Shown here: positions 12,150 to 23,365 of the stretch, piece by piece | Position numbering within the stretch: position 1 is the stretch's first letter | Layout of the letters: each line of letters starts with the position of its first letter | IMG/VR virus record: IMGVR_UViG_3300042691_018783 | Location: 1 to 46,022 of that record | Length of the DNA stretch: 46,022 bases | Source of the DNA: a virus | Strand: one strand, 5' to 3' | The notes under the pieces: model-generated | Databases searched by the model: none | What the model was told of the DNA's origin: nothing | What the model saw: the letters and a program-made list of their open reading frames with translations, nothing else | Translations under genes and position numbers: made by a program

Positions 12150-13271
12150 TTAAATTACATATATTTGTCTTGGCATTGCAGTAAATTTCTTTTGTTTATT
12201 TAAATTTTCTGCCAACAACGCTTCTCTCTCCATGACTTTCTCAGGTCTTAGTCTTGTAAGTCGACCTTCAGCACCAATCAATTCTTCGATTAGTTTTGTT
12301 TTTTCATCTTTACCTTCAGTTGCTAATGATTGGTAATCCATCGTTAATTCGCTATCAGGAGTTTTAATGTTACCACTAAATTTACCTCTAACTTTAGATA
12401 ATGCCTCTTTTGCAGACGCAAAGAAATATCTACGTACCCAAATCTGAGCTGGGTTATTTAAATCAACCCAAGAAATTTTATCAAAAGGAACGTCAGAAGG
12501 TAACTTGATTATATCAGGATTATCTTTTAAACACTTATCTCTATCTGAAGGGCCTACATCATAATACCAATACCAAACTTGACCCTTTCTTAAAGAACCA
12601 TTACCAAAATCAAATTTACCACCAGGTACATTCATTAAATGAACCGCCTTTTTACCATCAGGTAATGCGGTTATTCTATATGTCAAATCACCACCAATGA
12701 TTCTTCTTTGTATATTAATTTGTTGTAATCTAAGTAACATATCAAATGCAGGCATCATAAAATATGAACCTGTATATCCCATTTGAGAATATCCTGCTGG
12801 CCCCCCTAATCCTGCTCCACCTAAAGCCCCAAAAGACCACGGGTCAAAAAGGACGTTGTTTAGAGCGGTTGGAGTAAACCATAATAATTCATTGATTTCA
12901 CGACCTGCGGGAATTTCATAAATTTGTTTACCCCTTTCGATATTAAAGAAATCTTTTTTAAGTACATAATCACCCCCTGCTTGTAAACCAACAATTTTAG
13001 AATAAGCATATGTATATCTTTCTTCATAATCTAAACTTTTAGTAATAAAGGCTCTTGATAAAGATTGTGTGTCAAGATTTAAGTTATACAATGAGGTCCA
13101 TTGGGATTCTATAAGCCAATCTTGTACATATTGAGAGTAATCCTCTATAGAAAGAGCTAAAATAGAATCCAATTGTTCGTCTTCTAATTCTACCGACCTA
13201 AGAGGTGCTCCTAATGTATGTCTCAATCTTGTATAAAGTTGAGTTCTTTCTGGTTCTGCAATAATTGACAT
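12150..13271 (-). CDS. 13: neck protein, T4 gp13-like
   Basis: A 373-residue protein likely to close the portal vertex and dock the tail. The N-terminus (TRLRHTLGAPLRSVELEDEQ, followed by LDSILALSIEDYSQYVQDWL) matches the pattern I know from T4-type gp13 neck proteins: 'LGAP...E..DEQL......A...Y.EY'. A Gly-rich segment (FGALGGAGLGGPAGYSQMGY, ~residues 147-166) and a YEIPAGREINELLWFTP strand follow. It is longer than T4 gp13 (309 residues). It is on the minus strand while the gp14- and gp15-like genes are on the plus strand at 16.7-19.7 kb, so the usual 13-14-15 cluster has been broken by an inverted SOD/helicase block. The family call is from memory and moderately sure. Confidence 0.5.
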   Translation of the reverse strand: MSIIAEPERTQLYTRLRHTLGAPLRSVELEDEQLDSILALSIEDYSQYVQDWLIESQWTSLYNLNLDTQSLSRAFITKSLDYEERYTYAYSKIVGLQAGGDYVLKKDFFNIERGKQIYEIPAGREINELLWFTPTALNNVLFDPWSFGALGGAGLGGPAGYSQMGYTGSYFMMPAFDMLLRLQQINIQRRIIGGDLTYRITALPDGKKAVHLMNVPGGKFDFGNGSLRKGQVWYWYYDVGPSDRDKCLKDNPDIIKLPSDVPFDKISWVDLNNPAQIWVRRYFFASAKEALSKVRGKFSGNIKTPDSELTMDYQSLATEGKDEKTKLIEELIGAEGRLTRLRPEKVMEREALLAENLNKQKKFTAMPRQIYVI

Positions 13272-13292: not shown

Positions 13293-14831
13293 TCAACTTA
13301 GTTCATAAATTAAATCTGATTCAGGTAATACATACTGACCACCAATTATTTTGGTGTCTTTGTTTTCAAATATTAAAACCCCTTTAATTTTATTAGAGAA
13401 TATAATCCAATCTGTTGGGTACATTTTTACTTGTCCGCTATCTATTAATGTTATTTCTCCGTTTTCTTTTTTAGTATCTGAATAAGGTTTTATTTGCGCG
13501 GTTTTAGTTACCCCATCTATTGTAACTTTACAATCGACACCACTTATCATGTCTTCTTTATTACCTAATTCACCAATCTGTTCAACGTTACTCTCACCAA
13601 ATTTTTTCTTTAAAAGGTCTACAACGTGATTTTCAGTTCTACTACCAATACCATGGGTTAACCCAAGCCCACTCATTAAATTTTTAAATGTTGGGGAATC
13701 TTCATTAAAGATTCTATATTTAAATTCATCTAAAATACTAACAAACTTTTTTGTTTCACTTATTTGGACGAATGGTGGTTGACCTATTAATTTAATTATA
13801 GGTCTATTCATACTTTTTAGGACTTTATTAACGTCAACTAATAGAATACAAAAACAAGAATAATTAGTATTAAGTTTATTTATTATTGACCTACCATTAC
13901 CCTCCAAATCATAGATACCCGACATTTGACCTTCTCCGTACTCGTCATTACCGTAATATTTATTACTAAAAACTTCTTTCAGAATTGAGTCGATAGCTTC
14001 TCGATATATTTTTTTAACTTTAGGATTAATGTTAAAAATAAATCTAATAGCATCTATTGCGGACTTACTACATTTTTGGGACGGTGATTTAACGTTAATA
14101 GGTGTATTTTCTACAGATTCATTTAATTTTTTACTTCCTTTAGAATTATATAATTTGTTAACAAAATCCCAGTTAACCGCCTTCCAAAAGTTTTTAATAT
14201 ATTCGTCTCGTTTGTTTCTATATTTTAAATAATAAGCGTGTTCCCACAAATCAAGTCCTAAAATTGGGTACCCTCCATCTTCTACAACATTCATTAATGG
14301 GTTATCTTGATTAGGTGTTGACGTTATTTTTAGTCTACCATTTTTAGTTATTACTAGCCAAACCCAACCTGAACCAAATCTATCTTTAGCAATTTCTTCA
14401 AACTTAGATTGAAAGTTCTTATAAGACCCAAAATCTTTATTAATTCTTGATAAAACTTCACCCGAAAGTTTTTGAGTTTTTGGTGACAACATCTTCCAAA
14501 ATAAAGCGTGATTAAATGCGCCTCCTGCATTATTTCTAACTGTTTTATCAAATTTATTAATTGATTTTATAATCTCTTCTAATTCTAAATCACCACCTTT
14601 CTTTTTAGATAAAGCTTTGTTAAGTTTATCAACGTAACCTTTATAATGTTTATTATAATGATATGACATTGTTTCGGCGTCTATAAATTGTTTTAGTGCC
14701 GAATAAGAGTAAGGTAATTTTTCGATACCTATTTTTTTCATCTCAAACAAAAAGAGTTTTTCATTTTCTTTTTGTTCTTGTAAGATTAAGGATTCATTTA
14801 ATATCTTAATCTTATTTTCAAATTTTTTCAT
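13293..14831 (-). CDS. Fe/Mn superoxide dismutase fused to a nuclease-like domain
   Basis: A 512-residue two-domain protein. Residues ~38-230 are a complete Fe/Mn SOD: metal ligands are H58 (ETMSYHYNKHY), H108 (FNHALFW), D194 and H198 (LDLWEHAYY), and Y66 sits at the active-site gate. G103/G104 (NNAGGAFNH) and Q175 (STPNQDNPLM) are of the Mn-SOD pattern. It should convert superoxide to O2 and H2O2. Residues ~240-385 are unrecognised. Residues ~390-512 hold E400, then GVD (431-433) and QIKP (446-449), an arrangement like PD-(D/E)xK nucleases with Gln in place of the usual Glu. The same domain ends the zinc-ribbon protein at 17208. The N-terminal ~35 residues (KIKILNESLILQEQ) resemble a cleavable targeting peptide. 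LNES recurs at the SOD/nuclease boundary (236-239). It lies between neck and helicase genes. Confidence 0.85.
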   Translation of the reverse strand: MKKFENKIKILNESLILQEQKENEKLFLFEMKKIGIEKLPYSYSALKQFIDAETMSYHYNKHYKGYVDKLNKALSKKKGGDLELEEIIKSINKFDKTVRNNAGGAFNHALFWKMLSPKTQKLSGEVLSRINKDFGSYKNFQSKFEEIAKDRFGSGWVWLVITKNGRLKITSTPNQDNPLMNVVEDGGYPILGLDLWEHAYYLKYRNKRDEYIKNFWKAVNWDFVNKLYNSKGSKKLNESVENTPINVKSPSQKCSKSAIDAIRFIFNINPKVKKIYREAIDSILKEVFSNKYYGNDEYGEGQMSGIYDLEGNGRSIINKLNTNYSCFCILLVDVNKVLKSMNRPIIKLIGQPPFVQISETKKFVSILDEFKYRIFNEDSPTFKNLMSGLGLTHGIGSRTENHVVDLLKKKFGESNVEQIGELGNKEDMISGVDCKVTIDGVTKTAQIKPYSDTKKENGEITLIDSGQVKMYPTDWIIFSNKIKGVLIFENKDTKIIGGQYVLPESDLIYELS

Positions 14832-14873: not shown

Positions 14874-16655
14874 TTATCTCAGACTATTAATTCGATTCAT
14901 CATTTCCTCAACAATATCTCCCCTATCTAAATTGTCACCCATAACAGTCTCAAATATATTCTTCTTATTTGCCAATATATCATAGATTACTCCCTCGATA
15001 GTGTTTTCAAAAATTGGGTAATATACCGATACATTTGATTTTTGACCATATCTATAGGCTCTATCCTCAGCTTGTGAGTGGTCAGATGGTACAAATGATA
15101 AATCGTTCATAATAACCGCTTCACCCGCGGTTAAAGTTAAACCAACACCCGCAGCTTTTAAGTTACCAACAAAAACTTTAACTTTTTCGTTCTCTTGAAA
15201 TTGGTCAACCGCATATTGTCTTTGTGGTTTACTTGTACTACCATCTAATCTAACCGCTTGTTTACCAAAATGGTCGGCAATTTTATTTAGAGTGTCTGTA
15301 AAATTTGTAAAAATAATAACTTTTTTATCTTGGTCTAAAATATTTTGAGCCAATTCTATAGTGTTTGATATTTTTTCTTCAGCAATGACTTGTCTTACTT
15401 TCATTAACTTAGAAAATTGTACTGTTAGAGAATTTGATTCTTCTTTTTTGTTGTCGTACCAATCATAATATTCCCCCATTAATCCTTCATAGTGTTTGGA
15501 TTTTAATCTTAAATAGACGGGGGTTATGATTTTATCTGGTAAATCTAAAACATCAGTTTTTAATCTCCTCAAAACTTGTCTTGAGGTTCTATCTCGTAAT
15601 TCTTCTAAATTTGACGCTCCCGTAACATTCCACACCTTACGATTACCAGCTTTAAATTGATACCCTTGACAATATCTAATGGCATATGCCATCCAATTCT
15701 GAGCAACAGGACTTTCAATTAAACTTAGAAGATTAAAATAATTCATTGGTCTCGATGTCATTGGTGTACCTGTTAGTAACCATAATCTTTCGGCTCTTTT
15801 ACTAAAACTATTCACTAATTTAGTTCGTTGTGCTTGACCATTTTGGATATAGTGAGCCTCATCAATAATAATTAAATCAGGGTTAAATTGATAAATTAAA
15901 CTGTTTTCTTTTTCTTTACCTGTATCATAAAAGTTTCTCAAAATATCATAATTAACAATTACAAAATCATGCTCTAACGAAAAATTTTTACTTTCTGCAA
16001 TATAAACAGGTCTATCAGTGTAATTCGCGATTTCTCTTTGCCAATTTATTTTTAATGATGCGGGACAAACTATCAATATTTTTTTAGCCTTTGTTTCTAA
16101 TGCTGCAACTATTGTTGCGGTTGTTTTACCTAGACCCATATCATCAGCTAAAATAAATCTTTTTGAACCCGCAAGTTTCTCAACCGCAAGAACTTGGTGA
16201 TTTAGTAAAGGTCTGTGGGAATACTTAGAATAATCAATCTCGACTTTCTCAACCTTATGAGTTTTAATTATAGCACCTTTTGGTAACCAAAAATCATGTA
16301 ATACTTCGTTATCAAAAATTTTACCCCAAATATGATATGATTTTTCTTTTTCCGCCAATAATTTCTCTACCCAAACTTGTTCAGGAATTGTTGTGTATAA
16401 TTTTTCATCCGCAATTTTTTTTGCAAAATAAGGGTCTAATTCAACCCATTTTTTGGCGACTTTAGGTTGGGTTTCATGGAAAGTTAAAATGTAATCGGAT
16501 TGGGAACGAGTAGGATAAAATTTTTTATTATTTTCTTTTTTATGTTTTAAATTTAATATAAAATTATTACCTCCCGAATAAGTATCGAGAATTTCTAACG
16601 CCCTCATTTCAATTAATGATGAGGTATTACCTGTTGTAACTTTTACTTCTAACAT
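14874..16655 (-). CDS. SNF2-type DEAH-box helicase (UvsW-like role)
   Basis: A superfamily 2 ATPase of 593 residues. Walker A is DDMGLGKTT (171-179), motif Ia lies around ILIVCPASLKINW, the DEAH box is IIIDEAHYI (262-270) and motif III is LLTGTPMTSRP (~293-303). The C-terminal RecA lobe carries VIIFTNFTDTL, VRLDGSTS and a QAEDRAYRYGQ motif VI. The motif set is that of SNF2/SMARCAL1-like enzymes rather than the classical T4 UvsW. The role is probably branch migration or fork remodelling in recombination-dependent replication. The N-terminal ~150 residues, with a Trp-rich VWVEKLL...YHIWGKIF stretch, precede the ATPase core. It is the promoter-proximal gene of the minus cluster and is divergent from the gene at 16696. 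Confidence 0.9.
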   Translation of the reverse strand: MLEVKVTTGNTSSLIEMRALEILDTYSGGNNFILNLKHKKENNKKFYPTRSQSDYILTFHETQPKVAKKWVELDPYFAKKIADEKLYTTIPEQVWVEKLLAEKEKSYHIWGKIFDNEVLHDFWLPKGAIIKTHKVEKVEIDYSKYSHRPLLNHQVLAVEKLAGSKRFILADDMGLGKTTATIVAALETKAKKILIVCPASLKINWQREIANYTDRPVYIAESKNFSLEHDFVIVNYDILRNFYDTGKEKENSLIYQFNPDLIIIDEAHYIQNGQAQRTKLVNSFSKRAERLWLLTGTPMTSRPMNYFNLLSLIESPVAQNWMAYAIRYCQGYQFKAGNRKVWNVTGASNLEELRDRTSRQVLRRLKTDVLDLPDKIITPVYLRLKSKHYEGLMGEYYDWYDNKKEESNSLTVQFSKLMKVRQVIAEEKISNTIELAQNILDQDKKVIIFTNFTDTLNKIADHFGKQAVRLDGSTSKPQRQYAVDQFQENEKVKVFVGNLKAAGVGLTLTAGEAVIMNDLSFVPSDHSQAEDRAYRYGQKSNVSVYYPIFENTIEGVIYDILANKKNIFETVMGDNLDRGDIVEEMMNRINSLR

Positions 16656-16695: not shown

Positions 16696-17211
16696 ATGAT
16701 GAATAATAAAGTTCCAATAACAAGAGTAGGTAAATTTTTCGGTTCCGATGATTACAACTTAGATTTATCAATTGGTGAAGAGTGGTTGTATGGGGATATG
16801 AATTTTACTTTGGTATTATACAGAATAGACAGAATTAAGACTAAAACGGATGATGTTTATGGGGAATCTTTAAAAGATGGGATTAAATTTTTACCTCCTG
16901 TCGAATTTAAAGGGTATGTTCAAATAATGGCGCCTGAAAATAAAAATATCGGTACTTCTAAAGTAAATCAATTTGAGCCTGGTAATATTAAAGTTTCTGT
17001 GTATATTAAACAATTAGAGGAACTTGGTATTGATATAAGTCATGGTGATTATATAGGTTATTATGAGACTGAAGATAGGGTGAGATATTATGTTGTGAAT
17101 AATGACGGAAGGGTTGTATCAGACAACAAACACAATTACGCAGGATACAAACCATATTACAGAACAATTATGGGTTCTGCGGTAACTGAAAATGAATTTA
17201 GAGGTTTATGA
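16696..17211 (+). CDS. 14: neck protein, T4 gp14-like
   Basis: A 171-residue putative neck or head-completion protein. Key features are RIKTKTDDVYGES (~48-60), FLPPVEFKGYVQIMAPE (~66-82), NQFEPGNIKVSVYIKQLEEL (~92-111) and GIDISHGDYIGYYE (~112-125). The order 'DxxYGE, P.E.KG.V, .F....VSV....LEELGI....GDYI.Y' is what I associate with T4-type gp14 neck proteins, although this one is shorter than T4 gp14 (256). It is mostly beta, with no membrane segments. Its stop overlaps the next ATG (ATGA at 17208-17211), so translation is probably coupled. A tandem Met-Met start (16696/16699) leaves the exact start ambiguous by one codon. Confidence 0.5.
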   Translation: MMNNKVPITRVGKFFGSDDYNLDLSIGEEWLYGDMNFTLVLYRIDRIKTKTDDVYGESLKDGIKFLPPVEFKGYVQIMAPENKNIGTSKVNQFEPGNIKVSVYIKQLEELGIDISHGDYIGYYETEDRVRYYVVNNDGRVVSDNKHNYAGYKPYYRTIMGSAVTENEFRGL

Positions 17212-18725
17212 AAATAGTAATAACTGAAACACAAATATTAAATCTACTCGAAAAAATTAATTCAAGTAAAGTGTTGTGCGATAAATGTGGATGGTCTTGG
17301 AAGTTATCAGAAGGTGGTGACGACCCTTATATATGTCATAAATGTGGTCATAATAATTCTGACGAAGATTATCGAGGTAAAAATGTGATGGTTTATTATA
17401 ATTTACATAAACACACCTTTTCAGTAACATATAAATCAAAAGTTATTCTACATGCCGATTATATAAAATTAAAAGATGTTGAATTTAGAGTTAGGGGAGG
17501 AGGCAAAGAAAAAGTTAGGTCTGAAAAAAGGAAAAACGTACATGCGTTTGTTATTGGTAAATTAATAGATTATTGTGAATTTCCGTGTAAAGAGTTACCA
17601 AATGAAACTTCATCCAAAGTGATAACTTACGACCCATATAAATATGATTCTTTTGTTTATAAAGATAATAAAGAACCTGTTTATAAAGCTAAAGAGGTTG
17701 ATATGATTAATCATAAAAATAAAATTTTTGTTATCAATGAAATTAAATCCCATTTAATTAAAGAATCTGAGGAAAAACCTACAAAATATACGTACACAAA
17801 AATTGGTCTATTTGAGAAATTTAACACAAAAAGATTTTATTTTAATGATATTGTAGCCGTTGATGATGATTCCCCAATACCAAATAAAATTAAAATGTAT
17901 GGTGTTGATGGTGATTTTGAATTTAATGAAAATGAGATTTTTATAGATATGGATAAAAAAAGAGCCTATGTTGATAGGTTATCGTTAGAAAAGTATTATC
18001 CTTCTTTTGAATTAAAAAATCATAAAAAATTATCCGAAACAATTGGTATTACATCGTCCTCAGTTAGAGAAGCTTTAGAAAAAGCCTTCCCACAAAATTG
18101 GGTTAAACAAGATAGTGTTTATACACCAGGGTTACGAGGTATTTACACCATTGGGGAAATGATAGGGGATAAGTCAGAAGATTGGTCTATTATGAATTAT
18201 TTTGACACTAAAGACGAAATACATAGTTTAATTTATTTACAGTATTTTGAGGATTTAAAAAATGGTAAGGAAATAAATGATATTGTTGAGTGGATGTCGG
18301 ATTTATTTAAAAACAATACAAAATACACAAAACTATTAGTTAAAAGACAATGGGAATCTATTAAAAGAGGATTAAAATTAGAAAAAGATTCTGTTAATAA
18401 TTTTTTATATAGAATTGGTACAAATAATTTTATTTATTATCCACATGGGTCCATAATGGATAGATGGAAAGGTGTTGACGTTACCGTAGATGATGTTAAC
18501 TACCAAATTAAACCTTTAACAAATTATACAGAAGAAGATGGTAAGTATACTGTTAATACATATGGTATGAGAGATTATACATCTAAAAAGAGTGTAAATA
18601 AAATAGTGTTTGTAAATAAAAAAATGGCTTTAGTTTTTGATAACCAAAATTATAGTGTGGTAAGTAAAAACAAGGTAATTTTTAATGAAGAACCATTAAT
18701 ATTAAAAGAAGATGCCACTACCTAA
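17208..18725 (+). CDS. zinc-ribbon mosaic protein with GVD...QIKP nuclease-like C-terminus
   Basis: A 505-residue multi-domain protein. Residues 1-18 (MKIVITETQILNLLEKIN) form a short amphipathic leader. C24, C27, C43 and C46 make a CxxC-x15-CxxC zinc ribbon (CDKCGWSWK and ICHKCGH). Residues ~58-150 form a module with VYYNLHKHTFSV, KNVHAFVIGKL and TYDPYKYDSFV, which I recall as widespread in uncharacterised phage proteins. The centre (~195-400) is unrecognised. Residues ~395-490 carry GVDVTV (422-427), YQIKP (432-436) and KIVFVNKKMALVFDN, matching the C-terminus of the SOD fusion (GVDCKV, QIKP, WIIFSNKIKGVLIFEN). A PD-(D/E)xK-like nuclease is inferred. It lies between neck and tail-completion genes and overlaps both, so it may be packaged or injected; that is not shown by sequence. 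Confidence 0.6.
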   Translation: MKIVITETQILNLLEKINSSKVLCDKCGWSWKLSEGGDDPYICHKCGHNNSDEDYRGKNVMVYYNLHKHTFSVTYKSKVILHADYIKLKDVEFRVRGGGKEKVRSEKRKNVHAFVIGKLIDYCEFPCKELPNETSSKVITYDPYKYDSFVYKDNKEPVYKAKEVDMINHKNKIFVINEIKSHLIKESEEKPTKYTYTKIGLFEKFNTKRFYFNDIVAVDDDSPIPNKIKMYGVDGDFEFNENEIFIDMDKKRAYVDRLSLEKYYPSFELKNHKKLSETIGITSSSVREALEKAFPQNWVKQDSVYTPGLRGIYTIGEMIGDKSEDWSIMNYFDTKDEIHSLIYLQYFEDLKNGKEINDIVEWMSDLFKNNTKYTKLLVKRQWESIKRGLKLEKDSVNNFLYRIGTNNFIYYPHGSIMDRWKGVDVTVDDVNYQIKPLTNYTEEDGKYTVNTYGMRDYTSKKSVNKIVFVNKKMALVFDNQNYSVVSKNKVIFNEEPLILKEDATT

Positions 18726-20032: not shown

Positions 20033-23000
20033 ATGGCATCTAACAACAAAGTATTCGTATCTCCTGGAGTGTACACATCTGAGGTTGATTTAAGTTTCGT
20101 AGCTCAAAGTGTTGGAGTTACAACGTTAGGTATCGTTGGTGAGACTTTAAAAGGACCAGCATTCGAACCAATCTTTATAAGAAACTTTGATGAATTCACT
20201 ACATATTTTGGAGGGACATCCCCTGAAAAATTCATTAATACACAAATACCTAAATATGAATCAGCATATATCGCTAAATCATATTTACAACAATCTAACC
20301 AATTGTTTGTAACAAGAGTTTTAGGTTTATCAGGTTATGACGCAGGACCTTCTTGGTCAATATCGACTAAAGCAAATGTTGACCCATCAACAGTTGACTT
20401 TTACTGTTTGGACCCTGTGATTGAAAACTGTGAACCTAAATGTAACTCTTATTACACAATAGATTATGCTATTAGTTTTACAGGTTGTAATAATAATACG
20501 GACAGTATTAAATTTACAATACCTTCAGAAATTCCTGATGAATTATTAGAGAAATTAAATTTACCATATGAAAAATTTGATGGTAGTACATCAACAATTT
20601 ATAATGATTTAACAAGTCAAATTTTAGATTGTTTAAACGATACTGACTTGCAATTTACTAATATCGATTACTTTGGAGCTATTCCAAAAGAAGATTATAA
20701 TATCTTATCACCAATCTTTACGGCAGAAACAAATGTATTTGGTGTTGATAATGTAAACGCTGAGAATATTAATTTTGCCGCTTCAGTAAATGACCCTTGG
20801 TATTATGCAACTTTTGATAATATTGGAAACGCTGCTTATACAGGGTTTTCTTTTTGGAATATTGTTACTAACTTAGAATTAATACCTGTAACTCCGACAA
20901 CAACCGCAGCACCTCAACCAACAACTACAACAACTACAAATCCTTGTACTAGTCCTACGGCAACAACTACAACATCAACAACAACTGTTAAACCTGTTGA
21001 TTGTTATACAGGTCAAATAGTTGGTAGAATTTTTGTTTATTCAGGAACTGCCTATACAGACTACGATGATTTAGTAATTGCAACTTTACGTTCAAGAGGT
21101 TTAGCAACATATGGAACTGATGATGGTGCGGTATATGAAGTATCAGGTTTAACTGATGTTGAAATGGTTTGTGACAAGGAATATTCTGGAGTTAGTAAAA
21201 ACCCTTATTCTACGTTTGGATTAAACATTACAAACAAAGACGGTGAAAAACTATTTTTTGAAACATCGTTTTCAAATTCAGATAGTAAGTACTTAACAAA
21301 AGTATTTGGTACATCAAACTTTGCAAAACCTAAAGATGTTGTTCCGTTATTTGTTGAGGAAAGATTCCAAGCGTTATTAAATTTTGCATGGAGAAAAGGT
21401 TATATTAGAGGTTTAAATTGTGAATTAACGGCTTTACCAAATGCGAGACAAGGAAATGACCCGACATCAATCGCTTGGTATTTAGAAAAATATCAATCAC
21501 CTATGTCACCATGGGTTGTGTCTGAATTAAGAGGTAATAAAGTATACAAATTATTTAAATTTACTACAATCGCTGACGGTAATGCGGCAAATACTGAAGT
21601 AAAAATATCAATTGCGAATATATCATTTGGTAATGGTACGTTTGACGTTATTGTTAGAGACTTCTTTGATTCTGATGCGGCACCTGATGTAATTGAGAAA
21701 TTCACTAACTGTTCTATGGACCCAGGTCAAAATAACTTTATAGCTAAAAAGATAGGAACTGTTGATGGGGAATACGCATTAAATTCTAAATTTATAATGG
21801 TTGAAATTAATGAGGATGCTCCTGTAGACGCATTACCTTGTGGTTTTGAAGGTTACCAATTTAGAGAATACGCGGGAGTTAGACCCCCGTTCCCAATTTA
21901 TAAAACTAAATATGATTTCCCTGGTGAGGTAGTATATAATCCTCCATTTGGTTTATCATCAGGAGCGGACGATATAGTTAGAAGTGCGGGTGATAATATT
22001 AGAAGAACTTATTTAGGTATTTCAGATACTGTAGGATTTGACGTTGACTTCTACTCTTATAAAGGTAAACAACTTCCATTAGACGTTTGTACAGATGTTA
22101 GTGGTGATGATTGGTTCTACAAATCAAGAGGTTTCCACATGGACATTAACGCATCAGGTATAACGATTGGTAATGGATTTATAACTAGTGGTACTCCAGC
22201 GTTCTTTGTAGGTTCAGCACCATTTACTACAGACCCTGAAGATTCATCAAATCCATATTTCAGATTATTTGCTCGTAAATTTAGTTTACTATGTGCGGGT
22301 GGTTTTGATGGATGGGATATCTATAGAGAAAGTAGAACTAATGGTGATAGATTCTCTTTAGGTCAACCTGGATATAGAAAAGGAGCATGTCCTTCATTTA
22401 AATACCCTACCGCAACAGGATGGGGAGCGTTTAAACAAATTACAGTTGGAGATAATACTCAAGATTGGGCGAACACCGACTATTACGCATACTTATTAGG
22501 TCAAAGAAGTTTTGCAAACCCTGAAGCGGTTAATATCAACGTGTTTGTTACACCTGGTATTGACTATGTTAATCACTCAAACTTAGTTGGTGATGCGGTT
22601 GACATGATTGAAAACGATAGAGCGGATTCAGTTTATATCTGTACAACACCTGACTATAATATGTTTGTACCTTCAACAGGAGACCAATTAGATTTCATCT
22701 ACCCACAAGAAGCGGTTGATAATCTTGAGGAGGCAGGTTTAGATTCAAACTACACCGCTACTTACTACCCTTGGGTATTAACAAGAGATACTGTTAATAA
22801 CACTCAGATTTATATTCCAGCAACTGCAGAGGTTACGAGAAACTTAGCGTTAACAGATAATATCGCATTCCCTTGGTTCGCTGCGGCGGGTTACACAAGA
22901 GGTATTGTAAATGCAATTAAAGCGAGAAAGAAGTTAACTCAAGAAGATAGAGATGTGTTATATAAAGGTAGAATCAACCCAATTGCAACTTTCTCAGATG

Positions 23001-23365
23001 TTGGAACTGTAATTTGGGGTAACAAAACTCTACAAATTAGAGAATCAGCACTTGACAGAATTAATGTTAGAAGATTATTATTACAAGCTCGTAAATTAAT
23101 TTCAGCGGTTTCTGTAAGATTATTGTTTGAACAAAACGATGAGAAAGTAAGACAAGATTTCTTAGATGCGGTTAACCCTATCTTAGATGCTATCAGAAGA
23201 GACAGAGGTTTATACGATTTCCGTGTAACAGTTTCTTCAGACCCTGCGGATTTAGATAGAAACCAATTAACAGGTAAAATTTATGTTAAACCAACTAAAT
23301 CTTTAGAATTCATAGATATTACATTCTATATTACTCCGACAGGAGCATCGTTTGATAATATCTAA
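20033..23365 (+). CDS. 18: contractile tail sheath protein (gp18)
   Basis: Forms the contractile sheath around the tail tube. The N-terminus VSPGVYTSEVDLSFVAQSVG, the GIVGETLKGPAFEP loop and YFGG.SPE are diagnostic of Myoviridae sheaths. The C-terminus (RRLLLQARKLISAVSVRLLF, RDRGLYDFRVTV, GKIYVKPTKSLEFIDITFYI) is the conserved sheath fold with the handshake strands. At 1110 residues it is much longer than T4 gp18 (659). The extra length is in the middle and includes a Thr-rich linker at ~286-320 (TPTTTAAPQPTTTTTT type) that joins surface domains. It is followed by a strong hairpin terminator. Start chosen at the ATG after an A-rich leader. Confidence 0.95.
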   Translation: MASNNKVFVSPGVYTSEVDLSFVAQSVGVTTLGIVGETLKGPAFEPIFIRNFDEFTTYFGGTSPEKFINTQIPKYESAYIAKSYLQQSNQLFVTRVLGLSGYDAGPSWSISTKANVDPSTVDFYCLDPVIENCEPKCNSYYTIDYAISFTGCNNNTDSIKFTIPSEIPDELLEKLNLPYEKFDGSTSTIYNDLTSQILDCLNDTDLQFTNIDYFGAIPKEDYNILSPIFTAETNVFGVDNVNAENINFAASVNDPWYYATFDNIGNAAYTGFSFWNIVTNLELIPVTPTTTAAPQPTTTTTTNPCTSPTATTTTSTTTVKPVDCYTGQIVGRIFVYSGTAYTDYDDLVIATLRSRGLATYGTDDGAVYEVSGLTDVEMVCDKEYSGVSKNPYSTFGLNITNKDGEKLFFETSFSNSDSKYLTKVFGTSNFAKPKDVVPLFVEERFQALLNFAWRKGYIRGLNCELTALPNARQGNDPTSIAWYLEKYQSPMSPWVVSELRGNKVYKLFKFTTIADGNAANTEVKISIANISFGNGTFDVIVRDFFDSDAAPDVIEKFTNCSMDPGQNNFIAKKIGTVDGEYALNSKFIMVEINEDAPVDALPCGFEGYQFREYAGVRPPFPIYKTKYDFPGEVVYNPPFGLSSGADDIVRSAGDNIRRTYLGISDTVGFDVDFYSYKGKQLPLDVCTDVSGDDWFYKSRGFHMDINASGITIGNGFITSGTPAFFVGSAPFTTDPEDSSNPYFRLFARKFSLLCAGGFDGWDIYRESRTNGDRFSLGQPGYRKGACPSFKYPTATGWGAFKQITVGDNTQDWANTDYYAYLLGQRSFANPEAVNINVFVTPGIDYVNHSNLVGDAVDMIENDRADSVYICTTPDYNMFVPSTGDQLDFIYPQEAVDNLEEAGLDSNYTATYYPWVLTRDTVNNTQIYIPATAEVTRNLALTDNIAFPWFAAAGYTRGIVNAIKARKKLTQEDRDVLYKGRINPIATFSDVGTVIWGNKTLQIRESALDRINVRRLLLQARKLISAVSVRLLFEQNDEKVRQDFLDAVNPILDAIRRDRGLYDFRVTVSSDPADLDRNQLTGKIYVKPTKSLEFIDITFYITPTGASFDNI

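Follow-up and report, generated by a model that had tools for sequence, protein, structure and literature searches.

The window analyzed, i.e., the entire 46,022-nucleotide stretch of the IMG/VR virus record IMGVR_UViG_3300042691_018783, harbors a minus-strand ORF (14831→13293) encoding a protein of 512 amino acids in which a superoxide dismutase (SOD) is followed by a C-terminal nuclease-like domain. Judging from the conserved prohead-protease-type sites found before the SOD and in the linker, this protein is probably a capsid-targeted cargo precursor, from which the prohead protease would release SOD and nuclease separately for packaging and injection.

Genomic setting and distribution of the fusion

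The initial annotation had placed a fusion of SOD with a nuclease-like domain at 13293–14831. The interval was right; the gene itself lies on the minus strand, and a plus-strand reading was ruled out by the many stops in the interval. The continuous frame claimed for the fusion was recovered as one uninterrupted frame in independent contigs, and the number of these rules out an assembly or frameshift artefact as its source. The 46-kb record carries genes for sheath, tube, baseplate hub, DNA polymerase, a UvsX-like recombinase, and an SNF2-type helicase, i.e., it belongs to a T4-like myovirus, and most of its genes are collinear with two phage contigs of ∼322 kb (L041/G001 and L044/G002). The tail sheath encoded in the window (20033–23365, plus strand) is 1110 amino acids long, with the known sheath domains confined to the last ∼300 residues; its homologue has 1238 amino acids in G001 and is spread over two ORFs in G002. 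The SOD gene adjoins tail/neck and helicase genes, outside the head cluster. The conserved upstream neighbor is the SNF2-type DNA helicase gene (14874..16655, minus strand), and the conserved downstream neighbor is a neck/head-tail adaptor-like gene (12150..13271, minus strand), which matched phrog_211, head-tail adaptor Ad2 (6.1e-09). The window contig itself carries no head genes, the prohead protease and capsid genes being present in the relatives only.

A first scan of IMG/VR retrieved at least 80 full-length relatives of the fusion showing 52–81% identity, which excludes a chance origin. Further scans brought the number of distinct ORFs with this SOD plus C-domain architecture to at least 99, nearly always located at the helicase–SOD–neck gene locus of T4-like jumbo phages. 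The SOD module was flanked by both the helicase and the neck gene, a virion-gene context, in 179 of 229 loci; the remaining loci mostly lacked one neighbor within the set distance, often at a contig end. The carriers of the fusion are a family of giant freshwater phages that are uncultured. No record searched in the annotated phage collection held a SOD–nuclease fusion, and the sole match to the C-domain in that collection was a standalone copy, found by profile, in the 735-kb metagenomic phage LR756501 (L133). The viral structure library contains a 501-amino-acid “superoxide dismutase” of an uncultured phage, matching at 52% over 483 columns; the fusion has thus been deposited previously. Neither a description of it nor a virion proteome or cleavage assay for such phages was found in the open-access literature. 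Several records of the phage collection (OR850395, OR845917, OR844989, OR846594, and others) carry host-like SOD genes with 45–50% identity to the window SOD, and several such SOD-bearing “phage” records look like mislabelled bacterial contigs.

Superoxide dismutase and nuclease-like domains

The Fe/Mn SOD domain occupies residues 36–230 (14142..14726, minus strand). The HMM search that had been suggested for this part of the protein matched Sod_Fe_N at residues 36–116 (3.4e-23) and Sod_Fe_C at residues 123–226 (1.9e-40), both exceeding the curated cut-offs, and the best matches in the PDB include MnSODs (E 9e-60, about 200 bits). The earlier description of a complete Fe/Mn SOD is borne out by these Pfam domains and by the full ligand set: H58, H108, D194, and H198, the gate residue Y66, and the Mn-type residues G103, G104, and Q175 had all been named correctly and show 100% conservation across 68 distinct sequences. 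Like the Mn-type members of the Fe/Mn SODs, the phage ORF has four metal ligands, the gate Tyr, and the Mn-type Gly/Gln; unlike them, it adds a presequence and a nuclease module. A dead SOD was ruled out at the level of sequence, every ligand being invariant, and the domain 36–230 would be expected to be enzymatically active.

The C-domain, comprising residues 250–512 (13296..14084, minus strand), matched nothing in PHROGs or Pfam, and the search proposed for the PD-(D/E)xK clan accordingly returned no Pfam family. The sole match of its profile among PDB sequences was a meaningless one, a retinoic acid receptor, and a scan of GTDB genomes, a weak, single-pattern test, gave 264 pattern matches with no relative of the domain among them. 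An Mrr-like assignment, to which the D...GxD...QxK spacing pointed, was confirmed by no library. The AlphaFold2 model of the C-domain showed a pLDDT of 88.7, and the top 12 Foldseek matches in the PDB were all I-Ssp6803I (a homing endonuclease) or Hjc resolvases, i.e., PD-(D/E)xK enzymes, with modest E-values from 7.9e-3 upward. The predicted fold is PD-(D/E)xK and hence not unrelated to nucleases. The E...GVD...QIK pattern pointed out earlier corresponds to E400, D433, Q446, and K448, which, together with D427, show no variation across a 45-row alignment including C-domains outside SOD fusions; these copies are only ∼21–25% identical, yet all five residues are retained. The D...QxK arrangement is the catalytic site of the nuclease DREN, which itself resembles I-Ssp6803I (PMC12205087). 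The C-domain shares the predicted fold and the E...D...QxK site with I-Ssp6803I, Hjc resolvases, and DREN of SPARDA; unlike these, it has no sequence-level family match and carries in addition an N-terminal part of ∼130 residues that is mostly helical. The nuclease-like character first proposed for this half is thus supported by the structural matches and the DREN-type site, and the assignment of a PD-(D/E)xK nuclease fold to the C-domain is supported by the predicted model.

In the (D/E)xK motif, Gln takes the place of the customary D/E, which, along with the missing match to a Pfam nuclease family, could point to a catalytically dead PD-(D/E)xK fold serving in DNA binding or core targeting, a role that would be compatible with packaging. 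Such a loss of catalysis is unlikely in view of the invariance of E, D, D, Q, and K across fused and standalone copies at that low identity, the presence of the same residues in tandem copies, and the catalytic role of D-QxK in DREN (PMC12205087). The C-domain would be expected to cleave DNA.

Other copies of the nuclease domain were found. A second, diverged nuclease-like copy is encoded in the window (18015..18722, plus strand) in the C-terminal half of a 505-amino-acid protein (17208–18725); it was detected by BLASTP (E 2e-4) and by profile, and it keeps the same E..D..GVD..QIKP residues. Apart from this copy, the 505-amino-acid protein has the presequence MKIVITETQILNLLE, a zinc-ribbon-like CDKCG..CHKCG, and a Phage_L5_gp82 domain, and its orthologue in G001 consists of just 144 amino acids, the L5_gp82 part. 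In G002 (L097), a standalone nuclease gene with the presequence MKITISEGQYKILSE is located near and downstream of the prohead protease gene, the S77 protease being encoded at L097:1342–2064.

Prohead-protease-type sites and presequences

Homologue conservation and a motif list delineated an N-terminal presequence, residues 1–30 (14742..14831, minus strand), which is putatively capsid-targeting and shows (I/L)xE at E13, E19, and E30. It ends in putative prohead-protease site 1, L28-F29-E30/M31 (14742..14750, minus strand; the slash marks the candidate cut), assigned by conservation and by the gp21 specificity (PMC9026906). The linker, residues 231–253 (14073..14141, minus strand), is predicted to be disordered from its pLDDT and shows a two-site pattern of putative protease sites; site 2 is L236-N237-E238/S239 (14118..14126, minus strand). 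E30 was found in 81 of 81 homologues, sequences that are related and do not represent 81 independent events, with residue 28 being L/I in 78 and V in 3 and residue 29 variable. Within the same set, E238 is present in 81/81, with L/I/V/M at residue 236 in 81/81, and E248 of the third site in 80/81 with I/L at −2, the window being the exception (K248). Most positions around E30, E238, and E248 are variable among the 81 distinct fusions. The AlphaFold2 pLDDT falls below 50 over residues 19–45 and 232–249, and these long low-confidence segments hold the sites. The density of (L/I)xE per 27 amino acids was 2.0 at the junction as against 0.26 in the SOD and 0.34 in the nuclease, and the two-site pattern occurred in 71 of 72 distinct linkers as compared to 3.7% of windows taken within the domains and 6.3% of linkers after shuffling. 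As the (I/L)xE motif is short and [LIV]xE occurs 14 times in the window protein, the sites are singled out solely by conservation and disorder. The T4 prohead protease gp21 cleaves after L/I-X-E, and a short capsid-targeting propeptide is all that foreign proteins need to enter the head and reach the host (PMC9026906). The putative sites at E30, E238, and E248 match this published specificity.

The corresponding protease and its presumptive signals were found in the relatives. Both 322-kb relatives carry a Peptidase_S77 (gp21 family) gene, and an S77 homologue is also present on seven further contigs bearing the SOD locus or the standalone nuclease gene; most contigs without S77 are shorter and could be incomplete. 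The capsid protein of the relatives is a Gp23 homologue (2e-73), and a LINE/A site occurs in 10/10 of their Gp23-type capsid proteins. Presequences such as MKIIITESQY..LxE start 19 of the 325 proteins of G001 and 25 of the 321 proteins of G002 (about 6–8%), the same pattern being found in ∼0.8–0.9% of internal windows. This excess indicates that these phages generally share an N-terminal signal centered on the motif of the putative protease sites, and the MKIIITESQYxxLxE presequence is probably a capsid-targeting signal. Among the presequence-bearing proteins of G001 and G002 (L099–L132) are some with Glyco_hydro_19 and PG_binding_1 domains.

An ordinary auxiliary metabolic SOD that acts inside the cell, is synthesized in the course of infection together with its fused domain and a functionless N-terminal extension, and is never packaged would accord with the position of the gene outside the head cluster. 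Phage SODs lacking such an extension also exist, e.g., that of Vibrio phage 2.275.O, in which no comparable presequence was found. This explanation is highly unlikely, as it would account neither for the conservation of E30, E238, and E248 in disordered, otherwise variable segments nor for the presequence family of these genomes. The PA5oct protein gp223 (L232:1450–1998) is a diverged standalone SOD-like protein whose record bears an ESI-MS/MS note; this note was discarded as evidence because ribonucleotide reductase and thymidylate synthase bear the same one.

Module exchange, the proposed precursor, and known systems

The modules attached at the SOD slot vary among the relatives, the variants including HExxH plus SOD and HExxH plus SOD plus one of several tails. 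L171 encodes an 873-amino-acid protein with SOD and two nuclease copies, whose linkers, SKLME-SIRIIKE-E and KKLTE-STRKNRLLLE-G, have the same layout as KLNE-S...IISE-G of the SOD–nuclease linker; the nuclease profile matches both L171 copies as well as the tail of L238. In L208, L209, and L242, SOD and nuclease are two adjacent genes, the nuclease beginning with MKKLFVINE/EK or similar. Protease-type sites lie at the module borders of the swapped modules. Since the modules fuse, duplicate, swap, and split with the site pattern kept, a precursor to be cut is favored over a bifunctional enzyme. A packaged protein that loses its presequence at E30 and otherwise stays joined, e.g., with the nuclease-like domain anchoring the SOD on DNA, would fit the retention of the fusion in at least 99 distinct ORFs and the loss of one linker site in the window (K248). 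Such an uncut protein appears quite improbable, given that the linker sites are kept to the residue while the remaining linker is variable and that the modules also occur as adjacent separate genes (L208, L209, and L242) and in other combinations.

In L188:4581–5678, L205:1521–3614, and related sequences, the SOD follows an N-terminal HExxH (HEWVHEYQ) domain of ∼130 amino acids, which showed no significant Pfam family and is a possible zincin peptidase. The module after the SOD in L205, L235, and L236 (residues ∼375–697) contains E..FDV..SxK and is possibly an unrelated nuclease in the same slot; the C-terminal module of L205, which by eye resembles an E..D..xK nuclease, gave no match with the nuclease profile.

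In the favored cargo precursor, residues 1 to ∼30 would act as the capsid-targeting sequence and bring the precursor into the prohead core, and the S77 (gp21-type) protease would cut after (I/L)-x-E, both ahead of the SOD and within the linker. Cleavage would free the Fe/Mn-SOD and the PD-(D/E)xK nuclease as separate proteins, which would remain in the head alongside the DNA and enter the host together with it. The SOD would most plausibly clear superoxide encountered at entry, and the nuclease would most plausibly cut host or competitor DNA. This benefit, removal of superoxide together with cutting of host or competing DNA, is the likeliest and yet the weakest step of the proposal; a protective effect against oxidation of the packaged DNA in sunlit water is likewise possible. 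The entire course, from prohead targeting, cleavage, and packaging to injection and benefit to the phage, is inferred from sequence features. Of the functions envisaged in the initial annotation, a role in the infecting particle gains weight from the prohead-protease-type sites, whereas a joint enzyme of two halves lost ground: the halves are probably cut apart, given the sites on either side of the SOD and throughout the linker and the swapping or separation of the modules in the relatives. Redox chemistry directed against host or competitor DNA found no supporting evidence. For the locus as a whole, it is fairly likely that it encodes an interchangeable cargo polyprotein, built of HExxH, SOD, and one or two nucleases with a standard two-site linker and processed by the capsid-maturation protease of jumbo phages; one targeting sequence would thereby load several effectors at a fixed ratio, freed only in the head.

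The proposed precursor resembles the T4 internal proteins (IPI-III) and Alt in that the phage ORF begins with a short presequence with (L/I)-x-E at its end, the relatives encode a gp21-family protease and a Gp23-family capsid protein, and the cargo is proposed to be injected. The precursors of the T4 internal proteins give one mature protein each, whereas the phage SOD precursor would give two or three enzymes. SOD is not known to be among the T4 internal proteins. For the polyvalent proteins, which likewise unite disparate domains in a single phage polypeptide, packaging and injection have been predicted (Iyer et al., 2017, PMC5512222). Here too, two or more disparate enzymatic domains share one polypeptide, and one variant has a zincin-like HExxH domain. 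Superoxide is not mentioned in the text of the polyvalent-protein paper, and release was proposed to occur via embedded metallopeptidase domains (PMC5512222), whereas in the present case it would occur via the prohead protease at conserved linkers. In SPN3US, the identified cleavages, those of the protease itself excepted, all remove an N-terminal propeptide (PMC10052503). The redox proteins of poxvirus lateral bodies are likewise packaged by the virus for delivery at entry (PMC9282662); the viruses and proteins are unrelated to the phage SOD, and the likeness is an analogy only. What looks new is SOD as cargo, as well as a prohead protease that would free several enzymes from a single precursor.

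If the proposal is true, widespread uncultured giant phages enter the cell with a nuclease and an antioxidant enzyme of their own, both ready-made, which would imply that superoxide is hazardous just when a phage enters. The locus would then also represent a phage polyprotein strategy driven by the head-maturation protease. The MKIIITESQYxxLxE presequence could serve to list injected cargo, and the presequence together with the [IL]xE linker would provide a sequence rule by which metagenomic jumbo phages could be searched for further injected effectors.
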